This document shows, in pieces, positions 4,993-30,193 of a DNA stretch of 34,381 nucleotides. Under the pieces are notes generated by a model. That model was not told the origin of the DNA and did no database searches. It saw nothing but the letters and a program-made list of their open reading frames with translations. Every line of letters begins with the position of its first letter. Positions within the stretch are counted from its first letter, which is position 1. The position numbers and the translations under genes are program-made. This DNA is from an uncultured Nitratifractor sp. (GTDB lineage: Bacteria > Campylobacterota > Campylobacteria > Campylobacterales > Sulfurovaceae): contig CAMZLH010000041.1 of the NCBI GenBank assembly GCA_947311565.1, forward strand, positions 1 to 34,381, in the 5' to 3' direction.

Positions 4993-6012
4993 CTATACTA
5001 TTTCTGCACCACCTAATAGAGTATCATTGCTATAAAATACTGCAAACTGACCTTTTGCCACTCCATATACTGGCTCTTTTAGATATACCACACCACTCTT
5101 GTTAAATATTTTTACAGTTGCTTTTACACCTTCTGTTCTATACCTTACTTTAACCTCACAATCAAACTCTGTAGAATCTATAAATAAATTAATATTTGTT
5201 ATATTTATTTCATTCTCTTCTAAGTCATCCCTTTTCCCAACAATAAGAGTATTATTTTTCGAGTTAATATCTACTACGAAATGTGGTTCATGTGCTCCTT
5301 TTACAAAAAATCCTCTTCTCTTACCTACTGTATAGTGCATATATCCTTTATGATGTCCAATCTCTTTACCACTTAAATCAACTACTTTACCACTAATATC
5401 TATATTAGTATGCTCTTTTAATATATCTACATAGCTATCTGGTACAAAACATATTTCACTACTCTCACTCTGTGTTGCAAACTCTTTAAGTAGCTCAATT
5501 TTAGATGCAAACTTTTTTACATCATCTTTTATCCACTCTCCTAAAGGAAATAGCATTCTACCAACTGCCTCTTTTTTTACTTTAGCTAGAAAATAGCTTT
5601 GATCTTTACTTGCATCTTTCCCTTTTTTAATAACTCCATCTTCTACCCTTACATAGTGTCCTGTTGCGATTTTATCTATTCCTAAAGAGTCTGCAAACTC
5701 TATCATCTTTCCAAATTTAATATTACGATTACAAATAACACAAGGATTAGGAGTTAAGCCATCTATATAGCTTTTTACAAAATAGTCATATACCTCTTTT
5801 TTAAAACTATCTTGAATATAGAATATATGAAGTTTTATATTTAAATAATCTGCAACTTTTTGTGCTTTTTTAATATTTAAACTATTATCATCATCTAAAT
5901 TGTGCATTACCATATATACACCATCTACTTCATAACCTTGCTCTTGAAGAAGCAGTGCAGTAACTGTAGAATCTACACCGCCACTCATTCCTAATAGTAC
6001 TCTCTCTCTCAT
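4993..6012 (-). CDS. mnmA: tRNA-uridine 2-sulfurtransferase MnmA
   Basis: MnmA thiolates U34 at the wobble position of tRNA-Lys, Glu and Gln. The PP-loop SGGVDS (residues 10-15) binds ATP. The catalytic cysteines are C91 in NPCVICN and C188 in SSEICFV, equivalent to the family's paired cysteines. The C-terminal beta-barrel segment (HYTVGKRRGF and later strands) is complete. The length of 339 residues is slightly short of the E. coli protein but usual for this phylum. The start overlaps the stop of the upstream unknown gene by four bases (ATGA), so the two are translationally coupled. Confidence 0.96.
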   Translation of the reverse strand: MRERVLLGMSGGVDSTVTALLLQEQGYEVDGVYMVMHNLDDDNSLNIKKAQKVADYLNIKLHIFYIQDSFKKEVYDYFVKSYIDGLTPNPCVICNRNIKFGKMIEFADSLGIDKIATGHYVRVEDGVIKKGKDASKDQSYFLAKVKKEAVGRMLFPLGEWIKDDVKKFASKIELLKEFATQSESSEICFVPDSYVDILKEHTNIDISGKVVDLSGKEIGHHKGYMHYTVGKRRGFFVKGAHEPHFVVDINSKNNTLIVGKRDDLEENEINITNINLFIDSTEFDCEVKVRYRTEGVKATVKIFNKSGVVYLKEPVYGVAKGQFAVFYSNDTLLGGAEIV

Positions 6013-6422
6013 AATAACTCTTTTATCTCTAAGTATATTTTATTAGCTACTGACATATATGCTGTAGCTAGTTTTCTATTTTTAAAAAAAATAGTAACAT
6101 AGATAGGGTTTTTAGAGATAATACTCTTATTAAGAGATATCTCTCTATCTACGTTTAACTTAATAACTAAACTATTTTTTTTCTCCTTGAACTCTCGTCT
6201 CTTAATATCACCACTTTTAAATGCAAAAATATAACTAGAGTCTGAGATAATTTTATATATATAGTTACTACTATCAATAAAGTATATATAGCTACTATTA
6301 ATCTCTAAAAAACTACTATCTTTGACTCTTACAATATCTTTTTTACTAAACTCTATAGGTATAGATTTAAGCTCAAAGCTATCAACTAACAAAAGAGAGT
6401 TAGCTTGTAGATTATTAAGCAT
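6009..6422 (-). CDS. Unrecognised protein between flhF and mnmA
   Basis: I do not recognise this 137-residue protein. It has no signal peptide, no membrane segment and no nucleotide-binding motif, so it is not FlhG. The composition is rich in Ser, Ile, Lys and Tyr, with alternating hydrophobic stretches (SSYIYFIDSSNYIYKI, IYVTIFF) that suggest a mostly beta fold such as a small barrel. It overlaps flhF by 8 bases at its start and mnmA by 4 at its end, so it is made as part of the operon; the ribosome site is a weak GAGG. In flagellated Campylobacterota flhG sits at this position. It could be a PilZ-like or chaperone-like partner of FlhF, but nothing in the sequence proves that. Confidence 0.75.
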   Translation of the reverse strand: MLNNLQANSLLLVDSFELKSIPIEFSKKDIVRVKDSSFLEINSSYIYFIDSSNYIYKIISDSSYIFAFKSGDIKRREFKEKKNSLVIKLNVDREISLNKSIISKNPIYVTIFFKNRKLATAYMSVANKIYLEIKELL

Positions 6423-7476
6423 TTACCTCGCCTATAAAGTGTTCTAGTATCGCCCTTTTAGTAGCTATATCTAAATCTTTTGGAACATTTTGCCCCTTGC
6501 TAATAAATGATACTGGTAATTTAGTATCTAGTAAAAATGCAATTAAATTTCCACTATTTCTTGTCTCGTCAACTTTAGTAACTATAAACTTATCAATATT
6601 TAAAAAAGAGAAGTGTTCATAAATATCTTTTAAATCTATATATTTAGATGCAGCAGATAGAACTAAATTAATTGAACTATCACCTAAATTTGTACTACTT
6701 TTATAAAATTTAACAGTATTTAAAAGCTTCTCAATATCGTATGGAGAGCTACCTGCACTATCAATAAGTATTAAATCTTTATTAGCTAACTTTTTCATAA
6801 CTACATTAAAGTCATTTAGACTATCAATACAGTAGTAATCTACTCCTAAATTTTTTGCATAAAACCCTAGCTGCTCATAAGCACCTACTCTAAAGTTATC
6901 TAAATTAATTATAGCTATAGAGCTTTTATCTACACCTTTTAAAATACTCCATGCAGTAATCTTTGCAATAGTTGTTGTCTTACCTACACCAGTTGGTCCA
7001 ACAAATATATTAACTCTTGCATCTATTGGGCGTTTAGATATTGATAAGGAATCCTCTATCTCTTCTAATACAAATGATAGCAAAAGTTCTCTATCTTCTG
7101 CTACTTGTGTACCGTTAAATGGATCTAACATTAACTCAATCCAGTTAATATTAAGCCCTTTTTGCTCAAGCATCTCTTTAACATCATTAATCACTAACTC
7201 TTTATTACTTTCAGGACTCAATGCATCCTTCATTTTACTCATTTTATTTTTTAAAATATTAATTTCTTCTAAAAGTATCTCTTCTTCATCTATACCTGCA
7301 TACTGTTTATATATATCCTCTTGAATCTCTATTGTAATCTCTGATACTAAATTGCTATTATTATCTCTATACTGAGCTGCTTTTACTACTTTAAAGTTAT
7401 CTATAGAGCCATACTTTTGTATCGCTAATTTATACGCTTCGCTAGGTGTTTGGGCTATAAAACTCTCGTTAAGCAT
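6415..7476 (-). CDS. flhF: FlhF-type SRP GTPase
   Basis: FlhF is the third SRP-family GTPase (with Ffh and FtsY) and normally sets the polar position of the flagellum. The G domain is intact: GPTGVGKTTT from 160, DNFRVGAYEQL at 193-203, DSAG at 239-242 (usually DTAG) and TKVDE at 300-304, followed by an NG-type C-terminal helix. Residues 1-60 fit the variable B domain and 65-150 the N domain. At 353 residues it is about 100 shorter than the Campylobacter and Helicobacter proteins, mainly in the B-domain region. The ATG lies inside folK, preceded by AAGGAG. The usual partner flhG does not follow. Ffh and FtsY are less likely because there is no M domain and the folK neighbourhood is typical of flhF. 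Confidence 0.88.
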   Translation of the reverse strand: MLNESFIAQTPSEAYKLAIQKYGSIDNFKVVKAAQYRDNNSNLVSEITIEIQEDIYKQYAGIDEEEILLEEINILKNKMSKMKDALSPESNKELVINDVKEMLEQKGLNINWIELMLDPFNGTQVAEDRELLLSFVLEEIEDSLSISKRPIDARVNIFVGPTGVGKTTTIAKITAWSILKGVDKSSIAIINLDNFRVGAYEQLGFYAKNLGVDYYCIDSLNDFNVVMKKLANKDLILIDSAGSSPYDIEKLLNTVKFYKSSTNLGDSSINLVLSAASKYIDLKDIYEHFSFLNIDKFIVTKVDETRNSGNLIAFLLDTKLPVSFISKGQNVPKDLDIATKRAILEHFIGEVNA

Positions 7477-7973
7477 TTTGCTCCTTTCATATATTTTAAT
7501 GGTACTAACACACTCTCTCTACTACTCCAATAGGGGTGTGGTATATTTAAATCTCTACCTATATCTATTTTTAACTTTTCATAAAAAATTATATCCAAAT
7601 CTAATGTTCTTGGTGCATCTTTAAATAATCTCTCTCTCTTAAAGTGTCTCTCAACACTCTGTAGATACCTAAGTAGTGCTAATGGTTTTAATTTACTCTC
7701 TATCAAAAAAAGTGTATTGTAAAAATAAGGCTGCTCTAAATATCCAAATGGAGGATTTTTATATATAATAGATGTCGATAGAACTTTCACTTTTTTACCT
7801 CTATTCAAATAGTAAAAAAGCTTTATAAACTCTCTCTTAACATCACCTAAATTACCACCTACTCCAATTAGAGATACATGGTTTTTTGGTTTATATTTAT
7901 TAGTATTAAATGGAAAAAGCCTAGACTTTATAACTGTACTATTTTTATATCTTCTATATAAAAAACCACTCAT
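7455..7973 (-). CDS. folK: HPPK, 6-hydroxymethyl-7,8-dihydropterin pyrophosphokinase
   Basis: HPPK transfers pyrophosphate from ATP to 6-hydroxymethyl-dihydropterin in folate synthesis. The family signature appears as APRTLDLDI at 120-128, with the metal-binding D125 and D127, and GGNLGD near 39-44. Residues 1-32 are a basic N-terminal extension compared with most homologues. The C-terminal 22 bases overlap flhF, and the start lies 5 bases beyond the pepQ stop. The order pepQ-folK-flhF is the usual one in Campylobacterota. Confidence 0.93.
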   Translation of the reverse strand: MSGFLYRRYKNSTVIKSRLFPFNTNKYKPKNHVSLIGVGGNLGDVKREFIKLFYYLNRGKKVKVLSTSIIYKNPPFGYLEQPYFYNTLFLIESKLKPLALLRYLQSVERHFKRERLFKDAPRTLDLDIIFYEKLKIDIGRDLNIPHPYWSSRESVLVPLKYMKGAKCLTRVL

Positions 7974-16852: not shown

Positions 16853-17119
16853 TTAAAATCTAAACTTATTATTATGATTTAAATTTGGAAGTTGTTTATT
16901 TAGTTCATCTTCATCAAAAGAGTACCTAAAACTATCAATATACTCAAGTAAAAGGTTATAGGCCCAATTTATCTGCTCCATCTTATCACTATCTCCATTA
17001 ATATCGGGATGAAATCTTTTAGCAAGATAGATATATCTTATCTTTATATCCTCTTTAGTAATAAATGGTGGTAGCTCTAGTATATCTAAAGCATTCTGAA
17101 TACTATGAACCTCCTGCAT
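16853..17119 (-). CDS. Small J-domain protein behind lptD
   Basis: This is a minimal J-domain protein of up to 89 residues: the strand NALDILELPP, helix II KEDIKIRYIYLAKRF, the HPD motif (RFHPDINGD) that stimulates DnaK, and helix III EQINWAYNLLLEYI. There is no zinc or client-binding domain. The start is uncertain. ATG at 17119 overlaps the last 17 bases of lptD but lacks a ribosome site, and TTG at 17131 is worse. A strong AGGAGG at 17110-17115 instead points to an in-frame ATT at 17099-17101. It is the last gene of the purD-RDD-lptD group. The DnaK partner and its client are unknown; the lptD linkage hints at an envelope task. Confidence 0.85.
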   Translation of the reverse strand: MQEVHSIQNALDILELPPFITKEDIKIRYIYLAKRFHPDINGDSDKMEQINWAYNLLLEYIDSFRYSFDEDELNKQLPNLNHNNKFRF

Positions 17120-19184
17120 ATGACAAACCAAATGGTAGTAGTGTAAATTGCACCTTAAAATATTTATTACTTATAGAGTCTCTATTTCCTGCTTTATTAA
17201 TAATTGGCTTAATATTTTCCCCAAAAGAGAGATCAATACTCCAACATTTTTTATCTAAAAAGCTTCCGACTTGCCAATTCCTTAAACTTTTATTTCTAAA
17301 ATCATAAGCTGCACTCGCTCTAAATCTTAAGTTTTCATCATACTTATAATATGCACTAGCTGTTAAATCTTTTGAGGTTGTCTCTAATGTTTCATAATCT
17401 TTTTTCCAGTAAAACCCTAAAGATGCACCATACTTTTTATCTTTATATTTTATCTTATTATATATTCCTGTAGTTTTATTATATTTAAATGAGTAACCAA
17501 ATTCAGAATATAGACTCCATTTTTTATAACTTAAAGTAAACTCCTGTTTTAAGTCTCTTAACTTATTCTCTTTAAAATAGTAGTGTGCATCTAAAATATA
17601 TTTAAGACTTACCCCTTTTTTTAGACTTTTCCAGTATTGATGTGTTCTAAAAGTTAATTTTGAATCAAATGGTATTTCATCTATAAAATCGCTTTTTAAT
17701 GATTGTGGTATACTTCTATACTTCATCCAATCTTCACTTATAATTGTACTTTTAGTATAAATTAAACTAAACATAGCAGTATGAATAGCACTATCATACA
17801 CCTTAGTAAGATCAGTAGCTAACTCTATTTTATGATTAGCTACAATAGAACTATACTTTTTTTGCTCAATTGGAACATTATAAAAATCATATGCAGTTGC
17901 AACGATATCTTCACTAATATTTAAATTTAAATAGTGACTAAATAGAGAGTAGTGTAGTTCTAGAGGTACTTCAAACTTAACTTTAAAAGATTTATTTCCT
18001 AAGTCTCTTGTATAATTAGTTGCTGTTAAATCAGCACTATATGATAAGTTATTATATATTAAGTTATTATGGGGTAAATGCAGATGTAAATTAGGTAGTA
18101 GATGTAGAGTATCTTTATTGTTATCACCATTTAAATATTTAAAATATCTAAAATTTACACCACTATAAAAGTAGTTATTTTTTACAAAGTAATTTAATCT
18201 TGACTCTAAAAAACTACCTGTACTAAAATGTTTAAGATAATTCCTATTTTGAAGAGATATATAGTCTCTATCACTTAAATGCACACCATTAATATAGAGA
18301 GCATTTTGATAACCTTTTTTAGAGAGTGCATCTATAAGTGTATAGTTTTTATATAATAACTCAACTCCATAGTGTTTATTGTATCTAATATTGTACTTAT
18401 CTGTATAGCTTTTTTTATCATTAAAGAAACCTGCTTTTATAGTACCGTAAGCATCTTTGGCATGAAAAAATCTATATGTTGCATATAGGCCATATCCTCT
18501 TTTTGTCCTTATCTGTGGATCTATTTCTAAATCTTGGCTTTTACTTATCGCCCAAAAATATGGTAGTTCTAAAAGCGAACCTTCATCACTCATATTTGCA
18601 TATTTTGGTCTAAGAAACCCACTTCTTCTATCTTTAGATAAAGGTAGATATAGATATGGAAAGTAAAAAATAGGAATATCTTTAATGTAAACTTTTGCAT
18701 CACTTAATTTTAACTCTTTGGTTGTAGTGTCATAAATAGCTTTATCAAAACCTATCATCCAATCAGGGTTTTCTACAACACAGCTAGATACTAAAGCATT
18801 TTTAAATTTAACAATATTCTCCTCTTTTTTAGCTTCTATACCACTAATCCAGATATCCTCTTTATCTATTTGAAAAAAATCTTTAAAGAGGATATGATCA
18901 TTGTCTAAATTTATAACAAACTCTTTTGCATTTACTCTTTTACCACTTTTACTAATTAAAGTAGCTCCACCCTTGAGTGTTAAAGTAGAGTTATTTTTAT
19001 TATAAATACCGTTATTTGCTGTAATAATATCTCCATCATACTCTATTACAACACCACCATCTATATAAAATGTATTATTCTCTTCTTTAATATTGGTAGT
19101 AAAAACTTCTACATCTTTAGACTCTATTGCTTCAACAAATGTTGAGCCAAGTAGTAGTGTCGCTAAAATTAAACTATGCTTCAC
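17103..19184 (-). CDS. lptD: LPS-assembly outer-membrane protein LptD
   Basis: LptD is the barrel that inserts lipopolysaccharide into the outer leaflet, with LptE and the LptA bridge. A signal peptide (1-19) is followed by an OstA/LptA-like beta-jellyroll (about 25-140: VEVFTTNIKEENNTFYIDGG, IITANNGIYNKNN), then the barrel domain with PLYLPLSKDRRSGFLRP-type sequence near 175-195 and many amphipathic strands. The length of 693 residues is normal for this phylum. Only two cysteines exist, C135 and C647, which could form one interdomain disulfide. The start is GTG at 19184 with AAGGAG upstream. It encodes the AGGAGG used by the next gene within its last codons. Confidence 0.93.
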   Translation of the reverse strand: MKHSLILATLLLGSTFVEAIESKDVEVFTTNIKEENNTFYIDGGVVIEYDGDIITANNGIYNKNNSTLTLKGGATLISKSGKRVNAKEFVINLDNDHILFKDFFQIDKEDIWISGIEAKKEENIVKFKNALVSSCVVENPDWMIGFDKAIYDTTTKELKLSDAKVYIKDIPIFYFPYLYLPLSKDRRSGFLRPKYANMSDEGSLLELPYFWAISKSQDLEIDPQIRTKRGYGLYATYRFFHAKDAYGTIKAGFFNDKKSYTDKYNIRYNKHYGVELLYKNYTLIDALSKKGYQNALYINGVHLSDRDYISLQNRNYLKHFSTGSFLESRLNYFVKNNYFYSGVNFRYFKYLNGDNNKDTLHLLPNLHLHLPHNNLIYNNLSYSADLTATNYTRDLGNKSFKVKFEVPLELHYSLFSHYLNLNISEDIVATAYDFYNVPIEQKKYSSIVANHKIELATDLTKVYDSAIHTAMFSLIYTKSTIISEDWMKYRSIPQSLKSDFIDEIPFDSKLTFRTHQYWKSLKKGVSLKYILDAHYYFKENKLRDLKQEFTLSYKKWSLYSEFGYSFKYNKTTGIYNKIKYKDKKYGASLGFYWKKDYETLETTSKDLTASAYYKYDENLRFRASAAYDFRNKSLRNWQVGSFLDKKCWSIDLSFGENIKPIINKAGNRDSISNKYFKVQFTLLPFGLSYAGGS

Positions 19185-27829: not shown

Positions 27830-28786
27830 TTATACGAGAAGTCTACTCTTAGAATATCTAAAAAAATTTTCTATTATATCTTTTGCTTCATTAACATCTT
27901 TAACTCTATTAATCAAATCTCTAAACTCGCTAGCCCCTTGATATCCATATTTAGAGTAAGTATGTAGATGCTTTCTAAATAGTACAACTCCATACTCTCC
28001 ATAGAAATTAATCATTTGATAAAAATGTTCCAAAACTACATCTGTAATCAAATCTTTAGATATATCAACATTATCTTTAATCTCTTTAAATATCCAAGGT
28101 CTTCCTACAGCACCTCTTCCAATCATTATACCATCACACTTAGTATAATCGAGTACCCAATTTGCTTTCTCTTTACTATCTATATCACCATTTGCTATAA
28201 CAGGAATATTAAGAGAACTTTTAATCTCTGCTATTGCATCATAATCAACAGAAGCTTTAAACTTACCTGATCTAGTTCTACCATGAACAGCAATAAAATC
28301 TGCACCACTATCTTCACAAATCTTTGCAATTTCAAGATGATTTTTTTCTGAAAAACCTAATCTAATTTTAACTGACGTGTACTCTTTATTTGAGTATTTT
28401 TTTATTGTTTTAATGGCATTAGACATTTTTTTTAAATCTGTAAGTAGTGCACTTCCTTGTAAATTATTAACAACTTTTGGTACCGGGCACCCACAATTTA
28501 AATCTATACAATCAATACCATCTAGTTTATTTATTACATCAATTGCACGTCTAATTATTTCTGGATCACTACCTGCAATTTGAATTGAATATGGATCTTC
28601 TAAAGAGGATTTTTCTAACATTTTATTAGTCTTTTTACTACCATAAGCTAAAGCATTAGAGCTTATCATCTCACTTACAGTAACATCTACACCAAATTTT
28701 TTAACAACACTTCTAAAGGGTAAGTCAGTTAGCCCAGCAAGAGGGGCTAAAAAGTAAAGGGGTTTATTGGTAAAGTCTATACTCAT
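27830..28786 (-). CDS. dusB: tRNA-dihydrouridine synthase (DusB-like)
   Basis: Dus enzymes reduce uridine to dihydrouridine in tRNA with FMN and NADPH. The TIM-barrel start LAPLAGLTDLPFRS (13-26), the catalytic C100 in LNCGCPVPKV, KIRLGF, AVHGRTRSGKF and NGDIDSKEKA plus MIGRGAVGRPWIF (phosphate binding) are all present. The length of 318 residues is standard. It is the last gene of the rpsB operon and overlaps the membrane-protein gene by four bases (ATGA), an order also found in Campylobacter jejuni. Confidence 0.95.
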   Translation of the reverse strand: MSIDFTNKPLYFLAPLAGLTDLPFRSVVKKFGVDVTVSEMISSNALAYGSKKTNKMLEKSSLEDPYSIQIAGSDPEIIRRAIDVINKLDGIDCIDLNCGCPVPKVVNNLQGSALLTDLKKMSNAIKTIKKYSNKEYTSVKIRLGFSEKNHLEIAKICEDSGADFIAVHGRTRSGKFKASVDYDAIAEIKSSLNIPVIANGDIDSKEKANWVLDYTKCDGIMIGRGAVGRPWIFKEIKDNVDISKDLITDVVLEHFYQMINFYGEYGVVLFRKHLHTYSKYGYQGASEFRDLINRVKDVNEAKDIIENFFRYSKSRLLV

Positions 28787-29820
28787 TTGCAGATACTATC
28801 GCTACCTAATATATCATCAATTTTATAGTTATACTTACTTTTCTTAAGAGAATAGAATGCCTTTAAAGCTTTATACTCATCATCACTACTATCATCTAAA
28901 ATATCTCTAACTTTATCTAACATTTCATACTTAAATAGTAGATATATATATGCTGGTATAGCTGCATCACTATCTTCTTGTAATGTTTTAAAATTAGCCA
29001 AATTGCTATCTGGTTCAAAACTACCTAGAGTTGCTTTTGCTAACTTATAGTAATCTTTACAATCGAAGCTATACTCTTTAATAAAGCTGCTTATCATTTC
29101 ACTACTAAAACCAATATCCTCACCACTCTCTGCTCTGTTTAATAATAGAAAAAATCTATCTTTACCTAAAACTTTTGCATATTTTTTTAAAGTGTACATA
29201 TCTTGTTCTTTTGCTACACTATCTAGTGCCACTTCAAGTAGTTCATTAGAGTATTTATCACTAAATTCAATTACTTTTAATGCAAAAGATGGGTCACTAT
29301 TTAATTTATTAAAATTATTCTTAATCTCTATAGGATTATTTTCACTCAAGTGTTTAGCGAATTTTTGTTTATTAAGTTCTACATACTCTCCGCTATTAAT
29401 CTTTGTAATAACTTTCGCAGCATCTTTTATTTTATCAGAAATACTAGAGCTATCTAGTGTATTTGGAGTTATATAAGATTCTGCTAAAATAGAAGCTGAT
29501 CTTTTCATTTCTTCACTTGAGTAAGTTACTGATGTTGGTTCTTGAATTAAAGACCAGTATACACCATCCTCTAATTTTTTAGCATCTGCTTTTAACTTTC
29601 TAATATTAAAAAAGTTTTTAGTACTATAAAACATCATATGTAAAATTGAAAATATAACTAAAATTGCAACAGGAAGCGCTATCCATACTGCTATTGGCAA
29701 TTTTGGCATATTAATTCCAAAAACTTCAAATGAAAATGTTCCAGGATTAACCATATAAGTTGCTACTGCAACACCTATAACAAACAGTAATGAAAATACT
29801 GTATATAAACCTACTCTCAT
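28783..29820 (-). CDS. Two-span membrane protein with a helical cytoplasmic part
   Basis: Function is unknown. From ATG 29820 (AGGAGG eight bases upstream) the protein has 345 residues. An in-frame ATG at 29856 would overlap the upstream gene and lacks a ribosome site. Helices at about 4-23 and 42-65 form a hairpin, followed by a basic FNIRKLKADAKKLED coiled-coil-like stretch. The rest is mostly alpha-helical and acidic and ends with DSICK, with repeats of about 30-40 residues that might be TPR-like. The N-terminal hairpin resembles LapA (DUF1049) and the rest loosely resembles LapB, so a fused LapA/LapB-like LPS regulator is one guess. In C. jejuni a membrane protein sits at the same place between dksA and dus. 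Confidence 0.85.
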   Translation of the reverse strand: MRVGLYTVFSLLFVIGVAVATYMVNPGTFSFEVFGINMPKLPIAVWIALPVAILVIFSILHMMFYSTKNFFNIRKLKADAKKLEDGVYWSLIQEPTSVTYSSEEMKRSASILAESYITPNTLDSSSISDKIKDAAKVITKINSGEYVELNKQKFAKHLSENNPIEIKNNFNKLNSDPSFALKVIEFSDKYSNELLEVALDSVAKEQDMYTLKKYAKVLGKDRFFLLLNRAESGEDIGFSSEMISSFIKEYSFDCKDYYKLAKATLGSFEPDSNLANFKTLQEDSDAAIPAYIYLLFKYEMLDKVRDILDDSSDDEYKALKAFYSLKKSKYNYKIDDILGSDSICK

Positions 29821-29830
29821 AATATTCCTC

Positions 29831-30193
29831 CTATTTATAGAGCAACTCCTGCTCATTTATCTCTCGACAGTATATACAATATTTAGCAAATGGCTTAACT
29901 TTTAATCTCTCGATATCTATAGACTCTTCGCACATTTCACAAATACCATAACCTATACTTGATATTTTATCTAAAGCTAGCTCAATTTCTTCTAATTTTT
30001 TATACTGTTTTGTAATTAAAACATCATCAATTAAAGTATCATTTATCAAAATAGCATAATCACCTTCATCATTTGGAGACTGCTGCCCCATTAGTTTAAT
30101 CTCTTCTTCTGCTTTTTTAATGTTATTTTTTATACTAACTGCCATAGATAACAACTCATCTTTTAGCTCTTTTAACTCTTCTAATCTTCCCAC
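29831..30193 (-). CDS. dksA: DksA/TraR-family zinc-finger protein
   Basis: DksA-family proteins enter the RNA polymerase secondary channel and act with ppGpp. The 120 residues form a coiled coil (about 1-80) and a C4 zinc finger, C85, C88, C106, C109 (GICEMCEESIDIERL, then FAKYCIYC). The coiled-coil tip DxxDxA is not obvious in NDEGDYA (41-47), although D42, D45 and A47 give D-x-x-D-x-A. The length is close to the Campylobacter DksA (119-120). It lies 18 bases after rlmH and 10 bases before the membrane-protein gene. Confidence 0.9.
   Translation of the reverse strand: MGRLEELKELKDELLSMAVSIKNNIKKAEEEIKLMGQQSPNDEGDYAILINDTLIDDVLITKQYKKLEEIELALDKISSIGYGICEMCEESIDIERLKVKPFAKYCIYCREINEQELLYK

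Follow-up and report, generated by a model that had tools for sequence, protein, structure and literature searches.

Organization and conservation of the flhF locus

The stretch of DNA analysed here, termed the window, comprises the 34,381 nucleotides of contig CAMZLH010000041.1 (C41) in the 1.69-Mb draft genome, 99.99% complete, of an uncultured Nitratifractor sp. (Sulfurovaceae), and carries on its reverse strand the gene flhF (6415..7476), encoding a signal recognition particle (SRP)-type GTPase of 353 amino acids (aa) in a genome without a flagellum, followed directly by a 137-aa gene (6009..6422) whose product is very probably a partner of FlhF. The position directly after flhF is called the slot and the open reading frame (ORF) located there the slot gene, and the family of slot proteins is best read as a putative FlhG-type enhancer helix fused to a tandem SpoA module, for which the name EH-SpoA is proposed from the family evidence. 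In the window copy the enhancer-helix segment would cover approximately residues 1–15 (6378..6422; MLNNLQANSLLLVDS), placed by alignment and motif, with Gln6 invariant in the alignment of the slot proteins (A1), the first SpoA-like domain, with limits taken from the alignment, approximately residues 18–77 (6192..6371), and the second approximately residues 78–137 (6012..6191). FlhF has its GTPase (G) domain at 6436..7014, as given by the PF00448 match, and the approximate N-terminal part of its B-domain (residues ~1–50, from the alignment of the family FlhF proteins, A2), the FliG-interaction domain (FID) of Shewanella, at 7327..7476. As had been stated in the preliminary description of the window, flhF and the slot gene overlap by 8 bases (6415–6422), and the slot gene and mnmA (4993..6012) by 4 bases (6009–6012); upstream, folK (7455..7973) overlaps flhF by 22 bases, and both neighbours, on the same strand and assigned by profiles (Pfam and curated ones), are conserved in the locus comparison.

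Genomes were compared in a main sample of 80, with 49 from the window's family (f1, the Sulfurovum/Nitratifractor group) and 31 from the other families of the order, and in a smaller sample of 60 (37 from the family and 23 others) for the FliG, FliF, chemoreceptor and PF00437 searches; the numbers of matches within a genome are lower bounds in the FlhF, FlhG, PF00437 and chemoreceptor searches, and the best value per genome is complete. Comparison of the locus in flagellum-less relatives, which the preliminary description had proposed, revealed that the arrangement recurs across the family. Of 30 fetched loci (~1.5 kb on each side), 29 have folK adjoining flhF, 28 have mnmA downstream and 26 have pepQ upstream; contig ends account for the neighbours missing at L007 and L026 and, on its upstream side, at L012, and within the fetched stretch L020 is without pepQ, and L012 and L033 are without mnmA. 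An ORF of 137–177 codons, counted from the longest start, follows and overlaps flhF at 21 of the 30 loci, and nine have no slot ORF (L012–L017, L026, L029 and L034). The profile of 20 slot proteins (A1) matched 22 of the 49 family genomes, that is 22 of the 48 without FlhA, belonging to six genera, and each of its 23 matches in the family abuts an FlhF match (23/23); G032 and G029 both carry flhF and the slot gene. Outside the family, 16 genomes showed no more than weak similarity, which in most cases lies in the SpoA part of frames the size of FliN/FliY and is highest for a FliN-like gene of G058 (2e-6). In a phylum sample of 397 genomes, searched at a threshold of 1e-6, the 16 with the slot gene all belong to the family.

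The ratios of nonsynonymous to synonymous substitution (dN/dS) in five pairs of relatives, which exclude the window's own copy and a saturated sixth pair, were 0.04–0.14 for flhF, where one row carried a terminal stop codon, and 0.10–0.36 for the slot gene, and thus both genes are maintained as proteins in the relatives. The arrangement of flhF and the slot gene is not a chance one, given its recurrence throughout the family and the purifying selection that acts on the two genes in relatives. No earlier description of a slot-type protein was found in the titles and abstract openings of the literature, most subscription papers being outside reach.

Domain composition of the slot proteins

The enhancer helix of FlhG, with the motif DQAxxLR, stimulates FlhF through its glutamine (PMC12826062). 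The FlhG proteins of relatives begin with MKTQADKLKEL, MSQNQASKLEQM and METQANKLQEL (the last counted from its second Met), and slot proteins with MSNTQANGLRKT, MRGDTQATHLERM and MADTQANRLINL; the window's copy begins with MLNNLQANSLLL and contains the QAxxL-type helix core MLNNLQANSLLLV. The glutamine is invariant in all 20 slot proteins aligned in A1, and the QAxxL motif occurs within the first 14 residues of 18 of the 23 distinct slot proteins, within the first 24 residues of 35 of 35 FlhG proteins, and in only 2 of 603 other ORFs, where identical rows were removed, L032 and L115 represent the same locus, and L108 was scored as without the motif only because translation was counted from an upstream start. 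Of the longer motif DQAxxLR, the flanking D and R are not retained in the slot proteins. With a matrix of the full FlhG helix, 8 of 22 slot N-termini outscored all 604 background ORFs. An origin of the helix from the N-terminus of FliM was not supported, as the FliM N-terminal (EIDAL-type) matrix singled out none of the 22 slot proteins, the best (L007) lying above 596 of 619 other ORFs. The presence of the motif core through which FlhG binds FlhF, together with the adjacency of all 23 matches to flhF, makes it very probable that the protein acts as a partner of FlhF, as had been suggested in the preliminary description.

The body of the slot proteins resembles the SpoA domains of the flagellar C-ring. 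In seven family genomes without FlhA the FliMN_C profile matched at the slot; five of the seven exceed its cut-off, and in G025 and G042 it matched twice in tandem. PF01052 (SpoA) matched 14 of 20 members scanned singly at E <= 1, with a best value of 5.2e-14. Nine Protein Data Bank (PDB) profiles matched the slot family at E <= 1, eight of SpoA proteins and one of a hydrogenase; the SpoA-type matches include FliN (9e-5; entries 1yab/1o6a, on the second half), FliY, FliM::FliN, HrcQ2 (0.015) and SpaO (0.38). In profile-profile comparison (hhalign), the N-terminal and C-terminal halves matched the FliN SpoA domain with 91.7% and 95.9%, respectively, and each other with 94.5%, and the C-terminal half also matched FliY (94%) and FliM (83%), where 52 control comparisons remained at or below 15.6%. 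The AlphaFold2 (AF2) model of the relative L117, built from four sequences with a predicted local distance difference test (pLDDT) score of 78.6, comprises a low-confidence helix followed by two runs of strands that form a beta-rich body, and the top three PDB hits of this model all belong to the engineered FliM(SPOA)::FliN fusion 4yxb/4yxc (E 4.3e-8 to 1.2e-7; 152–157 columns; TM 0.62–0.65), which is described in PMC4443714. That the first half of the module derives from the SpoA domain of FliM is not shown, because this half matches the FliN SpoA domain and hardly FliM (23%) or FliY.

The preliminary description had called the 137-aa protein unknown. Scanned alone, the window copy gave no Pfam match and no SpoA match (PF01052 or FliMN_C), but profiles place it in a family that appears to combine an FlhG enhancer helix with a tandem SpoA of C-ring type. 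The window copy is very divergent and is among the weakest members of the family. It might accordingly be a small gene of separate descent that came to lie in the operon, whose motif and SpoA likeness arose by chance, an explanation to which we give very little credence: its own sequence is without a Pfam match, its own AF2 model is poor (pLDDT 33), and with the profile of other genera it attains no more than 0.0072, the best shuffle giving 0.19, but it directly matches the slot genes at the same position of G006 (6.4e-12) and G010 (1.4e-11) with 33–35% identity, it is recovered by a leave-one-out profile of the 22 other slot proteins (9.3e-11, against 0.074 for the best of 500 shuffles) and by a profile of five relatives of the same genus (1e-19), and the SpoA and fold evidence holds at family level. 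As the match is strong within the genus and weak across genera, the family membership of the window copy is transitive, through its genus, of which the other-genera profile finds three mates at 3e-10 to 1e-6. An identity as agmatinase was dismissed (16.1 bits; cut-off 174.3).

Besides this poor model and weak cross-genus value of the window copy, several observations weigh against reading the slot proteins as an enhancer helix joined to tandem SpoA domains and coupled to FlhF. The other-genera profile misses the genus mate L008 (0.16), which scores no better than a shuffle; the N-terminus of the window copy scores -4.9 on the full FlhG matrix, a value equalled or exceeded by 120 of the 604 background ORFs; the A of QAxxL is substituted in 4 of 23 slot proteins; the N-terminal half matches FliM and FliY poorly (23% and 2.6%); the helix of the L117 model has a pLDDT under ~55 and its PDB superpositions have root-mean-square deviations of 4.8–6.7; one slot match (G004) crosses a stop near its end; and many relatives keep FlhF without the partner gene.

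FlhF in genomes without flagellum and FlhG

The GTPase domain of FlhF matches the SRP54-type domain PF00448 at 1.8e-33 and its G motifs are present in the alignment, in agreement with the preliminary description, which had also found the protein short; its 353 aa compare with 405–493 aa in six flagellated relatives, and lengths near 353 aa are common in the flagellum-less family. The protein misses the curated FlhF cut-off (TIGR03499, 129.7 versus 174.15 bits), which is an annotation threshold and not a biological feature. In 28 of the 29 FlhA-bearing genomes from outside the family, the exception being G071, the best match of the window FlhF ranges from 1e-29 to 6e-49, and matches at about 1e-9 to 1e-15 are taken to represent the FtsY/Ffh level, far from the FlhF matches. 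Orthology is also indicated by position, the order folK-flhF being the same as in flagellated relatives. The N-terminal part is conserved in the 17 family FlhF proteins of A2, with P11, A14, A18, K21, Y22, A33 and Q35 invariant, and the FID, a domain defined in Shewanella FlhF (PMC11236974), is conserved in slot-bearing lineages although FliG was not found.

FlhF (E < 1e-20) was detected in 40 of the 48 FlhA-less family genomes, in G038 as two pieces on two contigs, and not in the other eight (G015, G018, G026, G027, G030, G033, G036 and G043), two of which have a completeness of only 83% (G026) and 72% (G036). In a tree of 45 FlhF rows, with FlhF only and no FtsY or Ffh, the family members other than G017 group in a single clade, next to which G058 stands on a long branch; this tree and A1 do not include L019, which is nearly identical to L018. 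The mean tip depth of FlhF is 1.34 with the partner (n = 21) and 1.72 without it (n = 17), relatedness being ignored, which is only suggestive of an accelerated evolution of FlhF where the partner was lost. Differential states of FlhF were also observed at single loci: L097 (5676–6542) and L096 (663–1526) encode FlhF proteins of 287–288 aa without the N-terminal B-domain that still adjoin folK, the former also adjoining mnmA, and the L096 contig is possibly a contaminant of G003, a genome whose full FlhF lies at another place; L013–L017, L026, L029, L034 and L098–L104 have an FlhF without partner that is almost contiguous with mnmA; and in L098–L104 the N-terminal part of FlhF has diverged, as has the last GTPase motif in L100, L102, L103 and L104.

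A complete flagellar gene set elsewhere in the genome, which the preliminary description had named as what would speak against a non-flagellar FlhF, was rejected, as genome-wide profile searches of the window genome gave no match to FlhA, FliMN_C, FliG_C or FliF. FlhA is present in 1 of 49 family genomes (G017) and in 29 of the 31 genomes from the order's other families, and FliG and FliF each in 1 of 37 family genomes, again G017, the sole sampled family member with a full flagellar locus (L107:3455–8728; flhF, flhG, fliA, fliM and fliY) and at least 24 chemoreceptor matches. According to a published survey, the Sulfurovum/Nitratifractor group lost all flagellar genes, and Sulfurovum lithotrophicum 42BKT (PMC5588614) and Nitratifractor salsuginis (PMC3156401) are described as non-motile; the same genome papers class 6 and 15 genes, respectively, under 'cell motility', and FlhF may therefore already carry its name in databases.

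The retention of FlhF without FlhG was likewise borne out. True FlhG (E < 1e-45) occurs within the family in G017 only, and the possibility of a hidden FlhG in the window genome was rejected, as the nearest match to the FlhG query (31% identity, from residue 25 onward) is MinD by TIGR01968 (351 bits; cut-off 212.9) and adjoins a gene resembling MinC, which the MinC models match below their cut-offs (L161:2589–3949, on G000:C44). MinD is patchy across the family and commoner where FlhF is absent. The reading of the preliminary description, an FlhF kept for a non-flagellar polar task, was supported in part, and the chemosensory array proposed there as such a task was rejected, as the MCP signalling domain had no match anywhere in the window genome; among the family genomes of the smaller sample, chemoreceptor signalling domains were detected in G017, in G010 (at least one, in a genome only 63% complete) and in G033 (at least one, below the cut-off).

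In flagellated relatives flhF is followed by flhG, fliA, fliM and fliY at 6 of 6 loci, in line with the preliminary description, which had named flhG and other flagellar genes. Gene identities were assigned by profile in L105 and by clustering with L105 at the other loci; in L105 the profiles confirmed the flhG-type ATPase, FliA, FliM and FliMN_C, and in L107 they confirmed the ATPase and the sigma factor. A gene of 112–122 aa follows flhG at five of the six loci and is missing there in L107 (G017); unnamed by any profile, it is called flgV here after the flagellar cluster named flhFG-flgV-fliAMY (PMC9321776). An intermediate order is observed in G058, from another family of the order, as folK-flhF-flhG-fliM-fliN-mnmA, with a second fliN-like gene elsewhere and a FliG with all three FliG domains over cut-off, whose neighbour is read as dxs (L094:2451–5500; L095:6169–6423; L160:2756–3946). 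Profile searches of G058 gave no FlhA, FliF or MCP match, and this seemingly organelle-free set of FliG, FliM, FliN, FlhF and FlhG suggests that the switch complex can outlive the organelle. The adjacency of mnmA to the flagellar remnant is common to G058 and the window's family, and the gene order of G058 suggests how such a cluster might collapse into one gene.

Origin and possible functions of the FlhF/EH-SpoA pair

The origin that we regard as likely is a shrinkage, after flagellum loss, of flhF-flhG-flgV-fliA-fliM-fliN/Y to flhF and a gene in which the beginning of flhG is fused to a pair of C-ring-type SpoA domains. The ancestor of the Sulfurovum/Nitratifractor family would have lost the flagellum, and a deletion would have joined the start of flhG, with its enhancer helix, to coding sequence of C-ring type from presumed C-ring donor genes. 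The fused helix would bind the FlhF-GTP dimer, with Gln6 completing the active site, and as helix and SpoA module reside in one molecule, inactivation of FlhF could come directly from the SpoA scaffold, which would trigger GTP hydrolysis and bypass the MinD-type ATPase cycle of FlhG. The FID of FlhF would bind some client unrelated to the flagellum, located at the membrane or pole, another client being expected because FliG was not found, yet the FID is still conserved; in Shewanella the FID binds FliG, and it is proposed there that FlhG lets FliM/FliN join (PMC11236974). The leading guess for the task of the pair, by analogy, is spatial organisation of the cell, at the division site or the pole, which is favoured because C-ring proteins and FlhG already perform such a role in Campylobacter jejuni. 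The further step, that the flagellar switch has been rebuilt as a stand-alone spatial regulator of GTPase and activator-bearing SpoA scaffold, controlling pole or division and in some lineages used instead of MinD, is put forward with considerable doubt.

The pair shares features with several known systems. As in the FlhF-FlhG switch of polar flagella, an FlhF orthologue after folK overlaps the gene of a partner that starts with a QAxxL core; unlike FlhG, the slot partner has no MinD-type ATPase domain (137 aa, no Pfam match) and joins the helix to SpoA, in a genome without a flagellum in which FliG and FliF were not found. With FliM and FliN/FliY (PF01052) the slot family shares two SpoA-like domains and, in the L117 model, a full-length fold match to 4yxb/4yxc, but the slot protein is too short for the CheC-like middle domain of FliM and has no FliM-type N-terminus, and unlike for a flagellar C-ring, no export apparatus was found in the window genome. 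Injectisome SctQ proteins (SpaO, HrcQ) have tandem SpoA domains in one chain, as the slot proteins appear to, and the HrcQ2 and SpaO profiles matched weakly, whereas the slot protein has an FlhG-like helix at its N-terminus; for SpaO the tandem in one chain is described in PMC4443714. Searches for type III secretion gave no FHIPEP (FlhA/SctV) or YscJ_FliF (FliF/SctJ) match in the window genome.

The shrunken cluster might also be a decaying remnant of the flagellum, with flhF and the fused fragment as leftovers in the folK/mnmA operon that have no present function, which we judge improbable. The slot gene evolves very fast, its presence and absence require at least six changes on the FlhF tree, FlhF is absent from eight FlhA-less family genomes (two of them under 90% complete), and the FlhF proteins of L096 and L097 have lost the N-terminal domain; decay is opposed by the low dN/dS of both genes in the five pairs, the presence of the GTPase motifs in FlhF, the glutamine shared by all 20 aligned slot proteins, and the retention of the slot gene in 22 genomes of six genera. 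A role of FlhF/EH-SpoA as substitute for Min-type control, drawn from the role of FlhG and the C-ring in Campylobacter and compatible with the shrinkage proposed above, is a tentative idea with rather low probability. C. jejuni is without Min, and its fliM, fliN, fliY and flhG mutants form minicells and misplace division (PMC6946799); in the family, MinD (an FlhG-query match below 1e-13) occurs in 5 of 6 genomes without FlhF versus 10 of 31 with FlhF (Fisher p 0.03), counted over genomes at least 90% complete, thereby excluding G026, G036 and all others under 90%, and without the flagellated G017. This association is, however, post hoc, with genomes that are not independent and relatedness ignored, and only for the window genome was MinD verified with the MinD model; an association of the slot gene itself with MinD was rejected as not significant (MinD in 5 of 18 genomes that have the slot gene and in 10 of 19 that do not; p 0.18), and the window genome has MinC-MinD alongside the pair. 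A role of the pair in placing type IV pili, pili having been named in the preliminary description too, or in placing a type II secretion system is again unlikely: the window genome has at least three matches to the secretion/pilus ATPase PF00437 and Shewanella FlhF binds the polar landmark HubP/FimV (PMC11236974), but PF00437 is present in 60 of 60 genomes, the FlhF-less ones included, and therefore does not discriminate on a link to pili.

The survival of an FlhF pair in a flagellum-less group, with a partner divergent enough to escape notice, offers a flagellum-free system in which FlhF's own role can be probed without the organelle, and a natural fusion of FlhG helix and C-ring domains, if true, would be independent evidence that the link between FlhG and the C-ring is functional.

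Three further ORFs were observed elsewhere in the window: a 357-aa ORF (28783–29856) without a Pfam match at 1e-4, a 395-aa ORF (822–2009) whose sole match is weak and WD40-like, and a 693-aa ORF (17103–19184) beside polynucleotide phosphorylase, also without a Pfam match at 1e-4, which from the gene order we presume to be possibly an outer-membrane protein such as LptD.

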